Of a stretch of DNA of 36,504 nucleotides, positions 5,264 to 10,187 are shown piece after piece. The notes beneath the pieces were generated by a model. The model had not been told where the DNA came from. It made no database searches and was given only the letters and a program-made list of their open reading frames with translations. Source of the stretch: Accumulibacter sp. (GTDB lineage Bacteria > Pseudomonadota > Gammaproteobacteria > Burkholderiales > Rhodocyclaceae); assembly GCA_031257115.1 (NCBI GenBank), contig JAIRPF010000090.1, forward strand, positions 1 through 36,504, read 5' to 3'. A program made the translations under genes and the position numbers. Positions within the stretch are counted from its first letter, which is position 1. Each line of letters starts with the position of its first letter.

Positions 5264-7375
5264 TCAAGCCGAGAGCTTCGAAAGATCGGCGACGCGGTTC
5301 ATCGCGTCGTGAAGGCGGGCGAGCAGCGCGAGCCGATTGGCGCGCACGGCCCTGTCCTCGGCGTTGACCATCACCTTGTCGAAGAATTCGTCGACCGGGC
5401 CGCGCAAGGTGGCGAGCATCCGCAGGGAACGGGCATGATCACCCGCCGCGAACGCGGCGTCGGCCCTGGGCACGATGTCGTCCAAGGCCCTGGCGAGCGC
5501 GATTTCAGCGTCTTCCTTCAACAACGAGGCGTCCACCCGACCGCCCACGCCGCCCTCGGCTTTTTTCAGGATGTTGCCGACGCGCTTGTTGGCGGCGGCG
5601 AGCGCCTCGGCCTCGGGCAGGGCGGAGAAGGCGCGCACGGCGGCGAGGCGCTTGGGGACGTCGCTCAGGATTTGCGGCCGGAGACTCACGACGGCGTCGA
5701 CTTCGCGCGCGGTATAGCCCTGTTCGCGCAGGAGGCCGGAAAGCCGGTCGTAGATGAATTCCCGAAGGCTGCCGAGGATTCCGTCCCCGACGGGAGGACG
5801 GAAACTGCCCGCCGCTCCGGCGAGCAAGTCGTCGAGCGGCAGGTCGATCCCGCTTTCCATCAGCATTCTGATTACGCCCACCGCATGGCGGCGCAGCGCG
5901 AACGGGTCCTTGTCGCCGGTCGGCGACTGTCCGATGCCGAACAGGCCGATCAGCGTTTCCAGCTTGTCGGCGAGAGCCACCGCGACGCCGACCCTGCCGC
6001 GCGGCAGATCGTCGCCCGCGAAACGCGGCTTGTAGTGATCCTCGATGGCGTCGGCGATTTCCGGCGACAGGCCGTCGTTCAGGGCGTAGTAACGCCCCAT
6101 GACGCCTTGCAGTTCGGGGAATTCGCCCACCATGTCGGTCAACAGATCGGCCTTGGCGAGCCGCGCGGCCTGCTCGGCCTGCCGCGTCGGTTCGCCGCCG
6201 CCAAGTTTTTCGGCGATGGCGCGGACAATGTCCACCACACGCTTGCAACGCTCGCCCTGGCTGCCGAGCTTGTTGTGATAGACCACCTTGTCCAGCCCCG
6301 CCACGCGCGATTCCAGCGTTTTCTTGCGATCTTGGTCGAAGAAGAAACGCGCGTCGGCCAGGCGCGGGCGCACCACGCGCTCGTTGCCGCCGACGATGGC
6401 CGACGGGTCGGCGGGCGAAAGATTGCTGACCATCAGGAAACGGTTGCTCAGCTTCCCGGCGGCGTCGAGCAGCGGGAAGTATTTCTGGTTCGCCTTCATG
6501 GTCAGGATCAGGCATTCCTGCGGCACTTCCAGGAATTCCGGCTCGAACCGCCCGGCGAGCACGTTCGGGCGCTCGACCAGCGCCGTTACTTCGTCGAGCA
6601 GCGCGTCGTCCTCGATGGGGCGCAGTCCGTCCCCCGCCTTTTCGGCGGCGGCCGCCAGCTGCCGGGCGATCTCGGCGCGGCGTTCGGCGAAGGAGGCGAT
6701 GACCGCGCCTTTCACAAGCAGGGTTTCGGCGTAACGGTCGGCGTGCTCGATGACGATCGGATCGGCGTTCGCCTCGAAGCGGTGCCCGCGCGTCGTATTG
6801 CCCGATCGCAGGCCGAGAACGGAAACCGGCACGACCGCGTTGCCGTGCAGCGCCATCAACCCATGCGCGGGACGCACGAAGTCGACGCTCGTCCAGCCGT
6901 CGGCCAGTTGATAATTCATCACCTTCGGAATCGGCAGCGCCGCCAGCGCCGCGTCGAGCGCCTTCTGCAAGCCCTCGGCGAGCGTCGCGCCCCTGACGAC
7001 GGAATCGAGGAACAGGGTTTCCGCCTTGCCCTCGCCCTCGCGGCGCAGGCGCGGCACGGCGGCGGCGTCCGCGCCGAGCGCGGCGAGCTTCTTCAACAGC
7101 GCCGGCGTGGCTTGGCCCGCCGCGTCCAGCCCGACGGAAACCGGCATCAATTTTTGCGCCACGGGCCTGTCGATGGCGGCGGCGAGCACATCCACGACGT
7201 GCGCGGCCAGGCGGCGCGGCGTCGCGTAGGAGGTAACGGCGGCGGCGTCGGCGGCCAGGCCGTCGCGCCGCAGAGAGGCGGCGAGCGCCGAGGCGAACGC
7301 CTCGCCCAGGTTCTTCAACGCCTTGGGCGGCAATTCTTCGACGAAAATTTCGACCAGCAGGTTTTGGGCAATCAT
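5264..7375 (-). CDS. glyS: Glycyl-tRNA synthetase beta subunit
   Basis: Beta chain of the alpha2beta2 bacterial glycyl-tRNA synthetase; it carries the tRNA-binding parts needed to charge tRNA-Gly. The 703-residue product starts MIAQNLLVEIFVEELPPKAL, the canonical opening. It holds the HD-like core (ANQKYFPLLDAAGKLSNRFL) and a C-terminal anticodon-binding region (residues about 590-700). I prefer the ATG at 7375; a TTG at 7432 is in frame but adds a non-conserved 19 residues. No strong Shine-Dalgarno sequence precedes 7375. The partner glyQ normally lies immediately upstream, but here the two are about 1.9 kb apart, separated by an amidotransferase and a toxin-antitoxin pair. Confidence 0.96.
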   Translation of the reverse strand: MIAQNLLVEIFVEELPPKALKNLGEAFASALAASLRRDGLAADAAAVTSYATPRRLAAHVVDVLAAAIDRPVAQKLMPVSVGLDAAGQATPALLKKLAALGADAAAVPRLRREGEGKAETLFLDSVVRGATLAEGLQKALDAALAALPIPKVMNYQLADGWTSVDFVRPAHGLMALHGNAVVPVSVLGLRSGNTTRGHRFEANADPIVIEHADRYAETLLVKGAVIASFAERRAEIARQLAAAAEKAGDGLRPIEDDALLDEVTALVERPNVLAGRFEPEFLEVPQECLILTMKANQKYFPLLDAAGKLSNRFLMVSNLSPADPSAIVGGNERVVRPRLADARFFFDQDRKKTLESRVAGLDKVVYHNKLGSQGERCKRVVDIVRAIAEKLGGGEPTRQAEQAARLAKADLLTDMVGEFPELQGVMGRYYALNDGLSPEIADAIEDHYKPRFAGDDLPRGRVGVAVALADKLETLIGLFGIGQSPTGDKDPFALRRHAVGVIRMLMESGIDLPLDDLLAGAAGSFRPPVGDGILGSLREFIYDRLSGLLREQGYTAREVDAVVSLRPQILSDVPKRLAAVRAFSALPEAEALAAANKRVGNILKKAEGGVGGRVDASLLKEDAEIALARALDDIVPRADAAFAAGDHARSLRMLATLRGPVDEFFDKVMVNAEDRAVRANRLALLARLHDAMNRVADLSKLSA

Positions 7376-7479
7376 GTTCAAATCGTATGGAGGCGCGCCC
7401 TGGAGCAAGGCGGGCAAAGGTTGAGTGAGCAAACCGCCATTCTATCGGTTCCCGTGGAGATATGCGCCCGGACTCGTGT

Positions 7480-8247
7480 TCAAACCCGGCGCTCCCCCAG
7501 ATAAAACAACCGCCAATCACCGGGCGCGATGCGCTGCCACGTCTCATTTCCGGTCAGGGGCTGGGTAGCGATGACCGTCACCACATCGTTGGGCGTGGTC
7601 TGTTTCCGGAAATCGATTTCCACATCCTGGTCAAGCAATCTGGCTTTGCCAAAAGGAGCGCGGCGCGTAATCCAGAACAGGTTGGTCGAGCAATACGCCA
7701 TCAGGTAGCGGCCATCGGACAGCAGCATGTTGAATACGCCCTTGCGGCGCAATTCATGGGACAACTCGGCGACATGACGGAAAACCTGTGGCCAACTGCG
7801 CGGCGTTTCCGTATAACGAGCCGCCAGACTGCGCAACAGCCAGCAGAATGCTTTTTCACTATCGGTTTCGCCAACCGGGCGAAAAGAGCCGGTTTCCAGC
7901 CCGCGATACCCGCGCAATTGGCCATTGTGGGCATAAGTCCAGTGACGCCCCCACAACTCGCGGGTAAATGGATGCGTATTCTCCAGCGAAACGCGCCCGC
8001 GATTCGCTTGGCGGATATGCGCCACCACCGCGCAGGACTTGATCGGATACTCGCTCACCAACCGGGCAATCGGCGATTCATAGCTAGGCTGCGGATCCTT
8101 GAATGTGCGGCAACCCTTGTTTTCGTAAAAAGTGATGCCCCAGCCATCCCGATGCGGCCCCGTCCCGCCGCCGCGCCGCACCAGCCCGGCAAAACTGAAA
8201 CAGATGTCAGTCGGGACATTGGCGCTCATTCCGAGGAGTTCGCACAT
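7480..8247 (-). CDS. YafJ-type class II glutamine amidotransferase
   Basis: A 255-residue N-terminal-nucleophile hydrolase of the YafJ/Gn-AT_II group. It starts Met-Cys-Glu-Leu-Leu-Gly, so removal of Met exposes the catalytic Cys2. Other glutaminase-domain signatures are [29 protein letters not shown] and [10 protein letters not shown]...AHNGQLRG. There is no synthase domain, so the acceptor of the ammonia is unknown; YafJ homologues generally lack a settled role. It is on the same strand as glyQ and glyS, 27 bases after the toxin gene and 104 bases before glyS. No clear ribosome-binding site precedes the ATG. It is part of the block separating the two synthetase genes. Confidence 0.9.
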
Positions 8248-8274: not shown

Positions 8275-9021
8275 TTATTCGATTTTTTCCCAAGGTAACG
8301 CGCCATCCGCGTACCCAGCCAATACGCTCCAGGCTTGAGTACGACTACTGAAATCGTAATTTTCTGTCAAAACAAAGCCATCTCTGCCGTTTGGCAATTT
8401 ACTCGGTTCAAGAATCCCCTTATCAATAAGCTCACGTCGTTTCTTTTCGTTTTCAGGTCTATAAGTTTTCAAAGATTCTTTTTCACTTGCAACCGCAAAT
8501 GCTCCCCTCAGAACCGTGAAATGCCCATCCGATTGAAGAATTCCCTCAGCTTCGATTCCCGTTTTATCAGCCCGCAAACGAAAGCGTTCGCCGATCGGAT
8601 GGTGTTCATCAAACGGATTAAGCAATTGAACGCCAGTTTTCATAAAATGCTTTGCATTTCTGGTGACAAGAATCAGATTATGCGCCAAGGCAGTTGCAGC
8701 AATTTGTTTATCAAGAGCGTTTTCAGAATGTGGCACACACAAACGCCCCCATATCTGCGCCACATTCTTATCAAAAGGCAGGATTTCGTCTGCGTAAAAC
8801 TCCAACACGCCAAGCAACCAATCATCAAGACGCGGCGCTTGTTCCAGATCGCCGCGATGGCGAAGCAGATCCACTCCACGCCGTAATTCACCAATAGTGA
8901 CAGCAGACAAAAAAACGTTCTGCGCCGTTGCGCAGGGATTGTTCAAAAAAGTACGCACACCGGGATTGGCGCGCTTATCTTTTCTCGACTCGCTAATGAT
9001 GTTGGTATCAATTAAATACAT
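8275..9021 (-). CDS. VapC-type PIN toxin fused to a DUF4357-like domain
   Basis: Residues 1 to about 140 form a PIN-domain ribonuclease of VapC/FitB type. They begin MYLIDTNIISE with acidic Asp5, then Glu45 (TIGELRRG) and Asp104 (NALDKQIAATA). The fourth position, usually acidic in TRNxxDF, is TRNAKHF here. VapC toxins normally end near residue 140, but this frame runs without a break to 248. The extra part resembles DUF4357: FTVLRGAFAVAS, RRELIDKGIL, then YDFSSRTQAWSVLAGYADG and PWEKI, echoing the family's FSS...A..VVLG..NG...W pattern. DUF4357 is better known on GIY-YIG nucleases and restriction-linked proteins. The ATG overlaps the antitoxin stop by 14 bases. The region is AT-richer than its neighbours, which suggests transfer. 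The PIN call is firm; the DUF4357 call is by eye. Confidence 0.85.
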   Translation of the reverse strand: MYLIDTNIISESRKDKRANPGVRTFLNNPCATAQNVFLSAVTIGELRRGVDLLRHRGDLEQAPRLDDWLLGVLEFYADEILPFDKNVAQIWGRLCVPHSENALDKQIAATALAHNLILVTRNAKHFMKTGVQLLNPFDEHHPIGERFRLRADKTGIEAEGILQSDGHFTVLRGAFAVASEKESLKTYRPENEKKRRELIDKGILEPSKLPNGRDGFVLTENYDFSSRTQAWSVLAGYADGALPWEKIE

Positions 9022-9235: not shown

Positions 9236-9272
9236 GGGAAAACTCCATTAGTCTCTTGAAACCCTCAACGCC

Positions 9273-10187
9273 TCACGCCACCGCCTTCAACCTCGCCAAC
9301 ACCTCTTCCGCCCGTTCCCGTTTCGCCATCGGAAAGCCCAGCCGGGCGCGGGAATCGAGATAGCTTTGCGCCACGCTCCGCGCGAGGTTGCGGATGCGGC
9401 CGATGTAAGCCGCCCGCTCGGTGACGGAAATCGCGCCGCGCGCGTCGAGCAGGTTGAAGGTATGCGCGGCTTTCAAGACTTGTTCGTAGGCGGGCAGCGC
9501 CAGCCGCGCGTCCATCAGAACCTTGGCTTCCTTCTCGTGAGCGTTGAAGGCTTCAAACAGAAACGCGACGTCGGAATGCTCGAAGTTGTAGGCCGATTGC
9601 TCGACTTCGTTCTGGTGGTAGACGTCGCCGTAGGTGAGACCTTCCGTCCACACGAGATCGAAGACGTTCTCCACGCCTTGCAGGTACATCGCCAGACGTT
9701 CCAGCCCGTAGGTGATTTCGCCGGTGATGGGTTTGCAGTCGATGCCGCCGACCTGCTGGAAATAGGTGAACTGCGTGATCTCCATGCCGTTCATCCACAC
9801 CTCCCAGCCCAGACCCCACGCGCCCAGCGTGGGATTTTCCCAATCGTCCTCGACGAAACGCACGTCGTTTTTTTTCAGGTCGAAGCCCAGGGCTTCGAGC
9901 GAACCGAGGTAGAGATCGAGAATGTCGGCCGGAGCGGGCTTCAAAACCACCTGATACTGGTAATAATGCTGCATCCGGTTGGGATTTTCCCCATCGCGCC
10001 CGTCCCTGGGCCGCCGCGAGGGCTGCACGTAAGCCGCCTTCCAGGGTTCCGGCCCGATGGCGCGCAGAAAAGTGGCGGTATGGCTCGTGCCCGCGCCGAC
10101 TTCCATATCGTAGGGCTGAAGCAGGGCGCAACCCCGTTCGTCCCAGAAATTCTGGAGACGCAGAATGACTTCCTGAAATGTAGGCAT
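9273..10187 (-). CDS. glyQ: Glycyl-tRNA synthetase alpha subunit
   Basis: Catalytic chain of the tetrameric glycyl-tRNA synthetase; it activates glycine with ATP and forms the class II active site. The 304 residues match the usual length. Motifs include [20 protein letters not shown] at the start, [38 protein letters not shown] (motif 2 region) and [16 protein letters not shown] (motif 3 region). It heads a same-strand run that reaches glyS only after an antitoxin, a toxin and an amidotransferase gene. Normal glyQ-glyS pairs are adjacent, so the spacing is the odd feature here, not the protein itself. Confidence 0.97.

Follow-up and report, generated by a model that had tools for sequence, protein, structure and literature searches.

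FitAB of Neisseria gonorrhoeae is a toxin-antitoxin system of the VapBC type with a ribbon-helix-helix (RHH) antitoxin (PDB 2bsq, 2h1o). The PIN domain of such toxins is an RNase, as distinct from GIY-YIG, HNH and PD-(D/E)XK, which are DNA-nuclease types. GmrSD type IV restriction enzymes carry DUF4357 as an accessory domain (PMC4619093). The gene described here joins a PIN toxin to DUF4357 and can be compared with several systems. With FitAB it shares the PIN toxin, the RHH antitoxin and the overlapping antitoxin-toxin order, but FitB stops after the PIN domain, whereas this toxin continues with a 110-residue DUF4357 tail. In GmrSD, DUF4357 is likewise accessory to a nuclease, but that nuclease is of the DUF262/DUF1524 type, acts on modified DNA, and is accompanied by neither a PIN domain nor an antitoxin (PMC4619093). 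GIY-YIG-DUF4357 proteins (PADLOC candidate PDC-S14) have the same C-terminal domain, but their N-terminal nuclease is GIY-YIG and they lack an antitoxin. The closest counterparts are HSDR_N-DUF4357 genes of three relatives (G054, G392 and G406), which occupy the same chromosomal slot and encode the same C-terminal domain, in G392 next to the same glutamine amidotransferase (GATase) gene; their effector half, however, is PD-(D/E)XK, and there is no antitoxin. We found no description of a PIN partner for DUF4357 in the literature.

The fusion lies in a stretch of 36,504 nucleotides from Accumulibacter sp. (contig JAIRPF010000090.1), referred to as the window, where the gene order is glyQ–vapB–PIN-DUF4357–GATase–glyS. 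The features are as follows.

9273..10187, minus strand: glyQ, glycyl-tRNA synthetase alpha subunit, bounding the cargo slot on its upstream side (PF02091, 7e-148)
9241..9249, minus strand: AATGGAGTT leader with a Shine-Dalgarno-like GGAG; in G392 the identical nine bases stand ahead of the HSDR_N-DUF4357 start codon
9008..9235, minus strand: vapB/fitA-type antitoxin, 75 aa, RHH (PF22513, 7.5e-17; FitA chain 2bsq_E, E=0.0018)
8275-9021, minus strand: PIN-DUF4357 fusion, a single open frame of 248 aa with its ATG at 9021
8608..9021, minus strand: PIN part of the fusion, FitB/VapC-type toxin, residues 1-138 (PF01850 and FitB 2bsq_A)
8275..8607, minus strand: DUF4357 tail, residues 139-248 plus stop, in frame with PIN (independent HMM, PF14267 and structure model)
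7480..8247, minus strand: GATase_4, class-II glutamine amidotransferase, downstream border, common to G392 (92% aa identity; PF13230, 3.4e-113)
5264..7432, minus strand: glyS, glycyl-tRNA synthetase beta subunit (TIGR00211, 1.7e-232)

The toxin half is a PIN domain of the FitB/VapC type. Pfam PF01850 spans residues 2-124 of the fusion above its cut-off (7.3e-12), and Neisseria FitB (2bsq_A) aligns with residues 1-141 (E=3.3e-14). Acidic active-site residues D5, E45 and D104 align with acidic positions of FitB; at the fourth position the fusion has N121 where FitB has D, and N is likewise found in the close relatives aligned. The gene of the FitA-like antitoxin lies directly upstream, with a 14-nt overlap at the start of the toxin gene. 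The VapC-type toxin and its coupled antitoxin are both as the first-pass annotation had described them, and the pair is intact. By analogy with these families, the fusion protein is probably a metal-dependent RNase kept inactive by its FitA-type antitoxin. Toxins of this kind end where the tail begins: VapCs of relatives stop at residues 136-138 with NPFE or NPFV directly before the stop codon, exactly at the junction of the fusion, which reads LLNPF on the PIN side and DEHHPIGERFRLR on the other. When the whole protein was used as a tblastn query against 101 family genomes, nearly all of the toxin matches (the best 60% identical) broke off around residue 139. GC content is the same on both sides of the PIN/tail boundary (45.9 and 45.8%), and a search for microhomology at the junction yielded only unconvincing matches of 8-10 bp.

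The first-pass annotation had also seen a resemblance to DUF4357 in the approximately 100 residues that follow. Pfam PF14267 matches the full fusion only below its 38.4-bit cut-off (residues 195-238, E=0.0018, 18.6 bits) and the tail alone at 21.0 bits, still under this gathering score. The Pfam model, however, has 54 positions, about half of the domain, which in the fusion extends over residues ~144-248, and among the relatives with the domain beside glyQ it falls short for G392 (14.8 bits) while G406 passes (44.7 bits). We built an independent HMM of the whole domain from other proteins only, leaving out the window and the three glyQ-linked tails. This HMM matched the tail with 46.7 bits (E=3.6e-12), whereas none of 20,000 shuffled tails scored higher than 12.8 bits. 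The window tail keeps 16 of the 24 conserved DUF4357 columns, compared with 17, 19 and 18 in the three glyQ-linked relatives. When the bases of the tail are shuffled, all 110 codons stay open in just 0.04% of trials. In an AlphaFold prediction of the whole protein made without an alignment, the tail was the sole part folded with some confidence, and the model of the tail alone (window 8278-8619; ma7ec2322a7b9) has a mean pLDDT of 91.8. This model had no fold match in PDB or BFVD at E<=0.001; the DUF4357 fold is possibly an unsolved one. Among PDB sequences the tail profile hit fused RecA chains (E=0.003), which we judged to be spurious matches. Support in the tree of DUF4357 tails was too low to place the window tail. 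On profile evidence the tail is DUF4357, and since the frame, the PIN domain, the antitoxin, the independent tail profile and the tail model all agree, the anatomy proposed in the first-pass annotation is right.

A search for other PIN-DUF4357 proteins, which that annotation had recommended, produced none in sampled genomes, in plasmids and phages, or in contigs of viral origin. Specifically, there were none by whole-protein tblastn in the 101 family genomes, by PF14267 in 200 genomes of the order, by tail profiles in 369 genomes of the class and 398 of the phylum, by tblastn in plasmids and phages, or in GTDB contigs (tail as query) and IMG/VR (whole protein as query); all of these searches covered samples, and in the contig scans only close relatives could be detected. 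One plasmid match (H28, Rhizobium leguminosarum; 84% coverage, 30% identity) was read as a chance extension, because it runs into a neighbouring annotated gene and is missed by the tail-only plasmid search. Among 83 DUF4357 frames fetched, repeat fetches included, only that of the window has a PIN domain; the others have GIY-YIG domains, HSDR_N at glyQ, or in one case HNH, and a few N-termini are unassigned. The view of DUF4357 as a domain of nucleases and restriction proteins thus agrees both with these partners and with the literature (PMC4619093), and PIN is a new partner among the nucleases found here joined to it (GIY-YIG, HNH, PD-(D/E)XK). The same genome encodes a second DUF4357 protein, of the GIY-YIG type (L035, C130:21745-21867, 308 aa). 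The GIY-YIG-DUF4357 gene at L044:344-2185 comes after what by eye looks like a NERD-type nuclease gene, and the two perhaps form a defence unit.

The origin of the tail is indicated by its chromosomal position, as its best matches are proteins encoded next to glyQ elsewhere in the family. An HSDR_N nuclease with C-terminal DUF4357 directly follows glyQ in G054, G392 and G406: genes of 426 aa (G054) and 379 aa (G406) lie between glyQ and glyS, and one of 350 aa (G392) lies between glyQ and the GATase gene that also flanks the window fusion. In the other loci compared, glyQ adjoins glyS, and the gap between them does not exceed about 210 bp. Searching 250 family genomes with the G054 protein recovered an HSDR_N half with a DUF4357 tail in these three only; the window was picked up too, but through its tail and nothing else. 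Every HSDR_N-DUF4357 gene seen in the family is therefore located at the glyQ slot, as is the window fusion. HSDR_N homologues inspected in further genomes have other C-termini. Three HSDR_N proteins (L100:3197, L101 and L102:2626) share a different C-terminal domain (TRRYxAxNxxxLYPGRPDL...), and since this domain occurs in the family, HSDR_N also takes several tails. DNA of the window and G392 is 86% identical through glyQ and 85% through GATase, and the match breaks at the glyQ stop codon and restarts 4 bp ahead of the GATase start. Because slot and flanks are homologous and free VapCs end at the junction, vapBC apparently replaced the nuclease half in frame. The first-pass annotation had named two results that would tell against it. 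One, a lack of any DUF4357 match, did not occur. The other, homologues showing two separate genes joined here, is in substance what was seen, the tail of relatives belonging to HSDR_N-DUF4357 and free VapCs ending at the junction; the fusion frame itself is real. For the same reasons we regard the fusion as a single-genome domain swap so far and not as a conserved PIN-DUF4357 toxin family.

Taken together, these comparisons make a replacement at the slot the likelier scenario, although by no means a certain one. A FitAB/VapBC-type module would have entered the glyQ-glyS interval, where a nuclease-DUF4357 gene was resident, and displaced the N-terminal PD-(D/E)XK (HSDR_N) part of that gene; the PIN toxin of the module would have been joined in frame to the remaining tail. 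The PIN RNase, held inactive by the FitA-type antitoxin, would then be tethered, or its site of action biased, by a tail that binds nucleic acid. The anatomy and origin of the fusion are well supported by the sequence comparisons; for the direction of change, we infer HSDR_N to PIN from the three HSDR_N carriers against one PIN carrier. The AATGGAGTT sequence before the start codons of both the fusion locus and the G392 gene weakly suggests, being short, that a leader behind glyQ was kept through the swap. Three observations count against the replacement scenario: the fusion is present in a single genome; the flanks are 92-95% identical to those of G392 whereas the tail is only 37-42% identical at the amino acid level, the exact parent gene not having been found; and GC content is unchanged at the PIN/tail boundary, where joining in place might have left a step. 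The HSDR_N-DUF4357 proteins of the slot are 33-39% identical to each other while their glyQs are 86-91% identical. Slot alleles accordingly are exchanged or diverge quickly, and the tail in the window is no more remote than the rest. At every locus the cargo is AT-rich, with a GC3 of 31-44% compared with 55-89% for those flanking genes that were measured.

The unchanged GC content leaves some room for a fusion formed elsewhere, namely for an older PIN-DUF4357 module that recombined into the glyQ-glyS slot and swapped with an HSDR_N-DUF4357 allele through the shared tail or flanks. The equally low GC of PIN and tail would fit such a history, as would the exchange of slot alleles. We nevertheless consider it distinctly unlikely, given that PIN-DUF4357 was found nowhere else in the searches made and that it would take a coincidence for such a fusion to land on the very slot of the rare HSDR_N-DUF4357 genes. 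The main rival to the replacement scenario concerns its outcome: vapBC may have landed in a nuclease-DUF4357 gene with the tail merely read through, so that the locus is an ordinary VapBC whose tail will be lost in time. FitB-type toxins work without a tail, slot alleles turn over quickly, and the fusion is kept in no relative; because it is known from one draft genome only, a hitch-hiking tail retains an appreciable, if minor, probability. The frame open to the end of the domain, the retained conserved columns and the good predicted fold speak for a tail in use, but a recent event would look alike.

The surroundings of the fusion have a history of their own. The window glyQ is 95% identical at the amino acid level to that of G392 (genus g54) against 76-80% to its own genus, and glyS is 80% identical to that of G902 (also g54) against ~52-59%. 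By contrast, gmhB just past glyS (78%) and a distal ABC ATPase (84-88%) have their best matches in the own genus. Since glyQ and glyS are foreign to the genus while these two genes are native, the glyQ-cargo-glyS block was probably acquired as one piece from a g54-like donor, and a cargo-bearing xenologue seems to have taken the place of an essential tRNA synthetase. A misbinned contig was ruled out on the same grounds, as gmhB and the ABC ATPase match the own genus best, in spite of the foreign glyQ and glyS. For the GATase, identity to proteins of Enterobacterales (Mixta, Erwinia, Pantoea) reaches 88%, which suggests that it moved across orders. The deviating kinship of glyQ, glyS and GATase, together with the draft state of the genome (212 contigs), could also be taken to mean that assembly brought together a vapBC locus and a DUF4357 gene which lie separately in the actual genome. 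Such an artefact is very improbable: the reading frame is kept across the join, which falls precisely between the domains and at the place where relatives carry a DUF4357 gene, and a chance misjoin would rarely produce this.

What the tail might do can be approached through its relatives. PDC-S14 candidate profiles of PADLOC match it at 7e-11 (6.9e-11 over profile positions 202-298 of 320), which lends indirect support to the possible link to phage defence raised in the first-pass annotation; the fusion as a whole has no full-length match to the PDC-S14 profile, and since only the C-terminal third matches, we did not file it as a member. The RAMA domain (PF18755) overlaps DUF4357 in L285:91-984 and L286:1441-2412 (1e-7 and 3e-6, under the cut-off), hinting that the two domains are related; in the window tail there was no RAMA profile match at E<=10 and no PDB fold match. 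The G054 tail matches the C-terminal part of the PADLOC DUF3780 profile (1.4e-5), and fusions to RAMA occur in some members of the DUF3780 family (PMC12839542). In MPND, the RAMA domain binds double-stranded DNA, its preference for 6mA being disputed (PMC9963953). The constant partnership with nucleases, the sub-threshold RAMA overlap and the DUF3780 match of the G054 tail together argue for a reader role, and by analogy with these families the DUF4357 tail may bind nucleic acid. A bolder idea, which we consider doubtful, is that DUF4357 is a plug-in sensor: foreign or modified nucleic acid would free or direct the PIN toxin and so elicit an abortive-type response instead of DNA cleavage, effectors being exchanged at a fixed glyQ-glyS slot.

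The domain exchange itself, which equipped a VapC-type RNase with a restriction-type tail, is real, clean and so far unique, and the fused protein may plausibly have a function of its own. An RNase toxin here occupies the effector position of a nuclease-DUF4357 gene whose other versions (HSDR_N, GIY-YIG, HNH) are of DNA-nuclease types, and the presumed states before and after the exchange can be compared at one chromosomal place. If the fusion works, it would offer a direct route to testing what DUF4357, a domain for which we found no related solved structure, recognizes, and it would be a toxin-antitoxin module tied to a restriction-type recognition domain.
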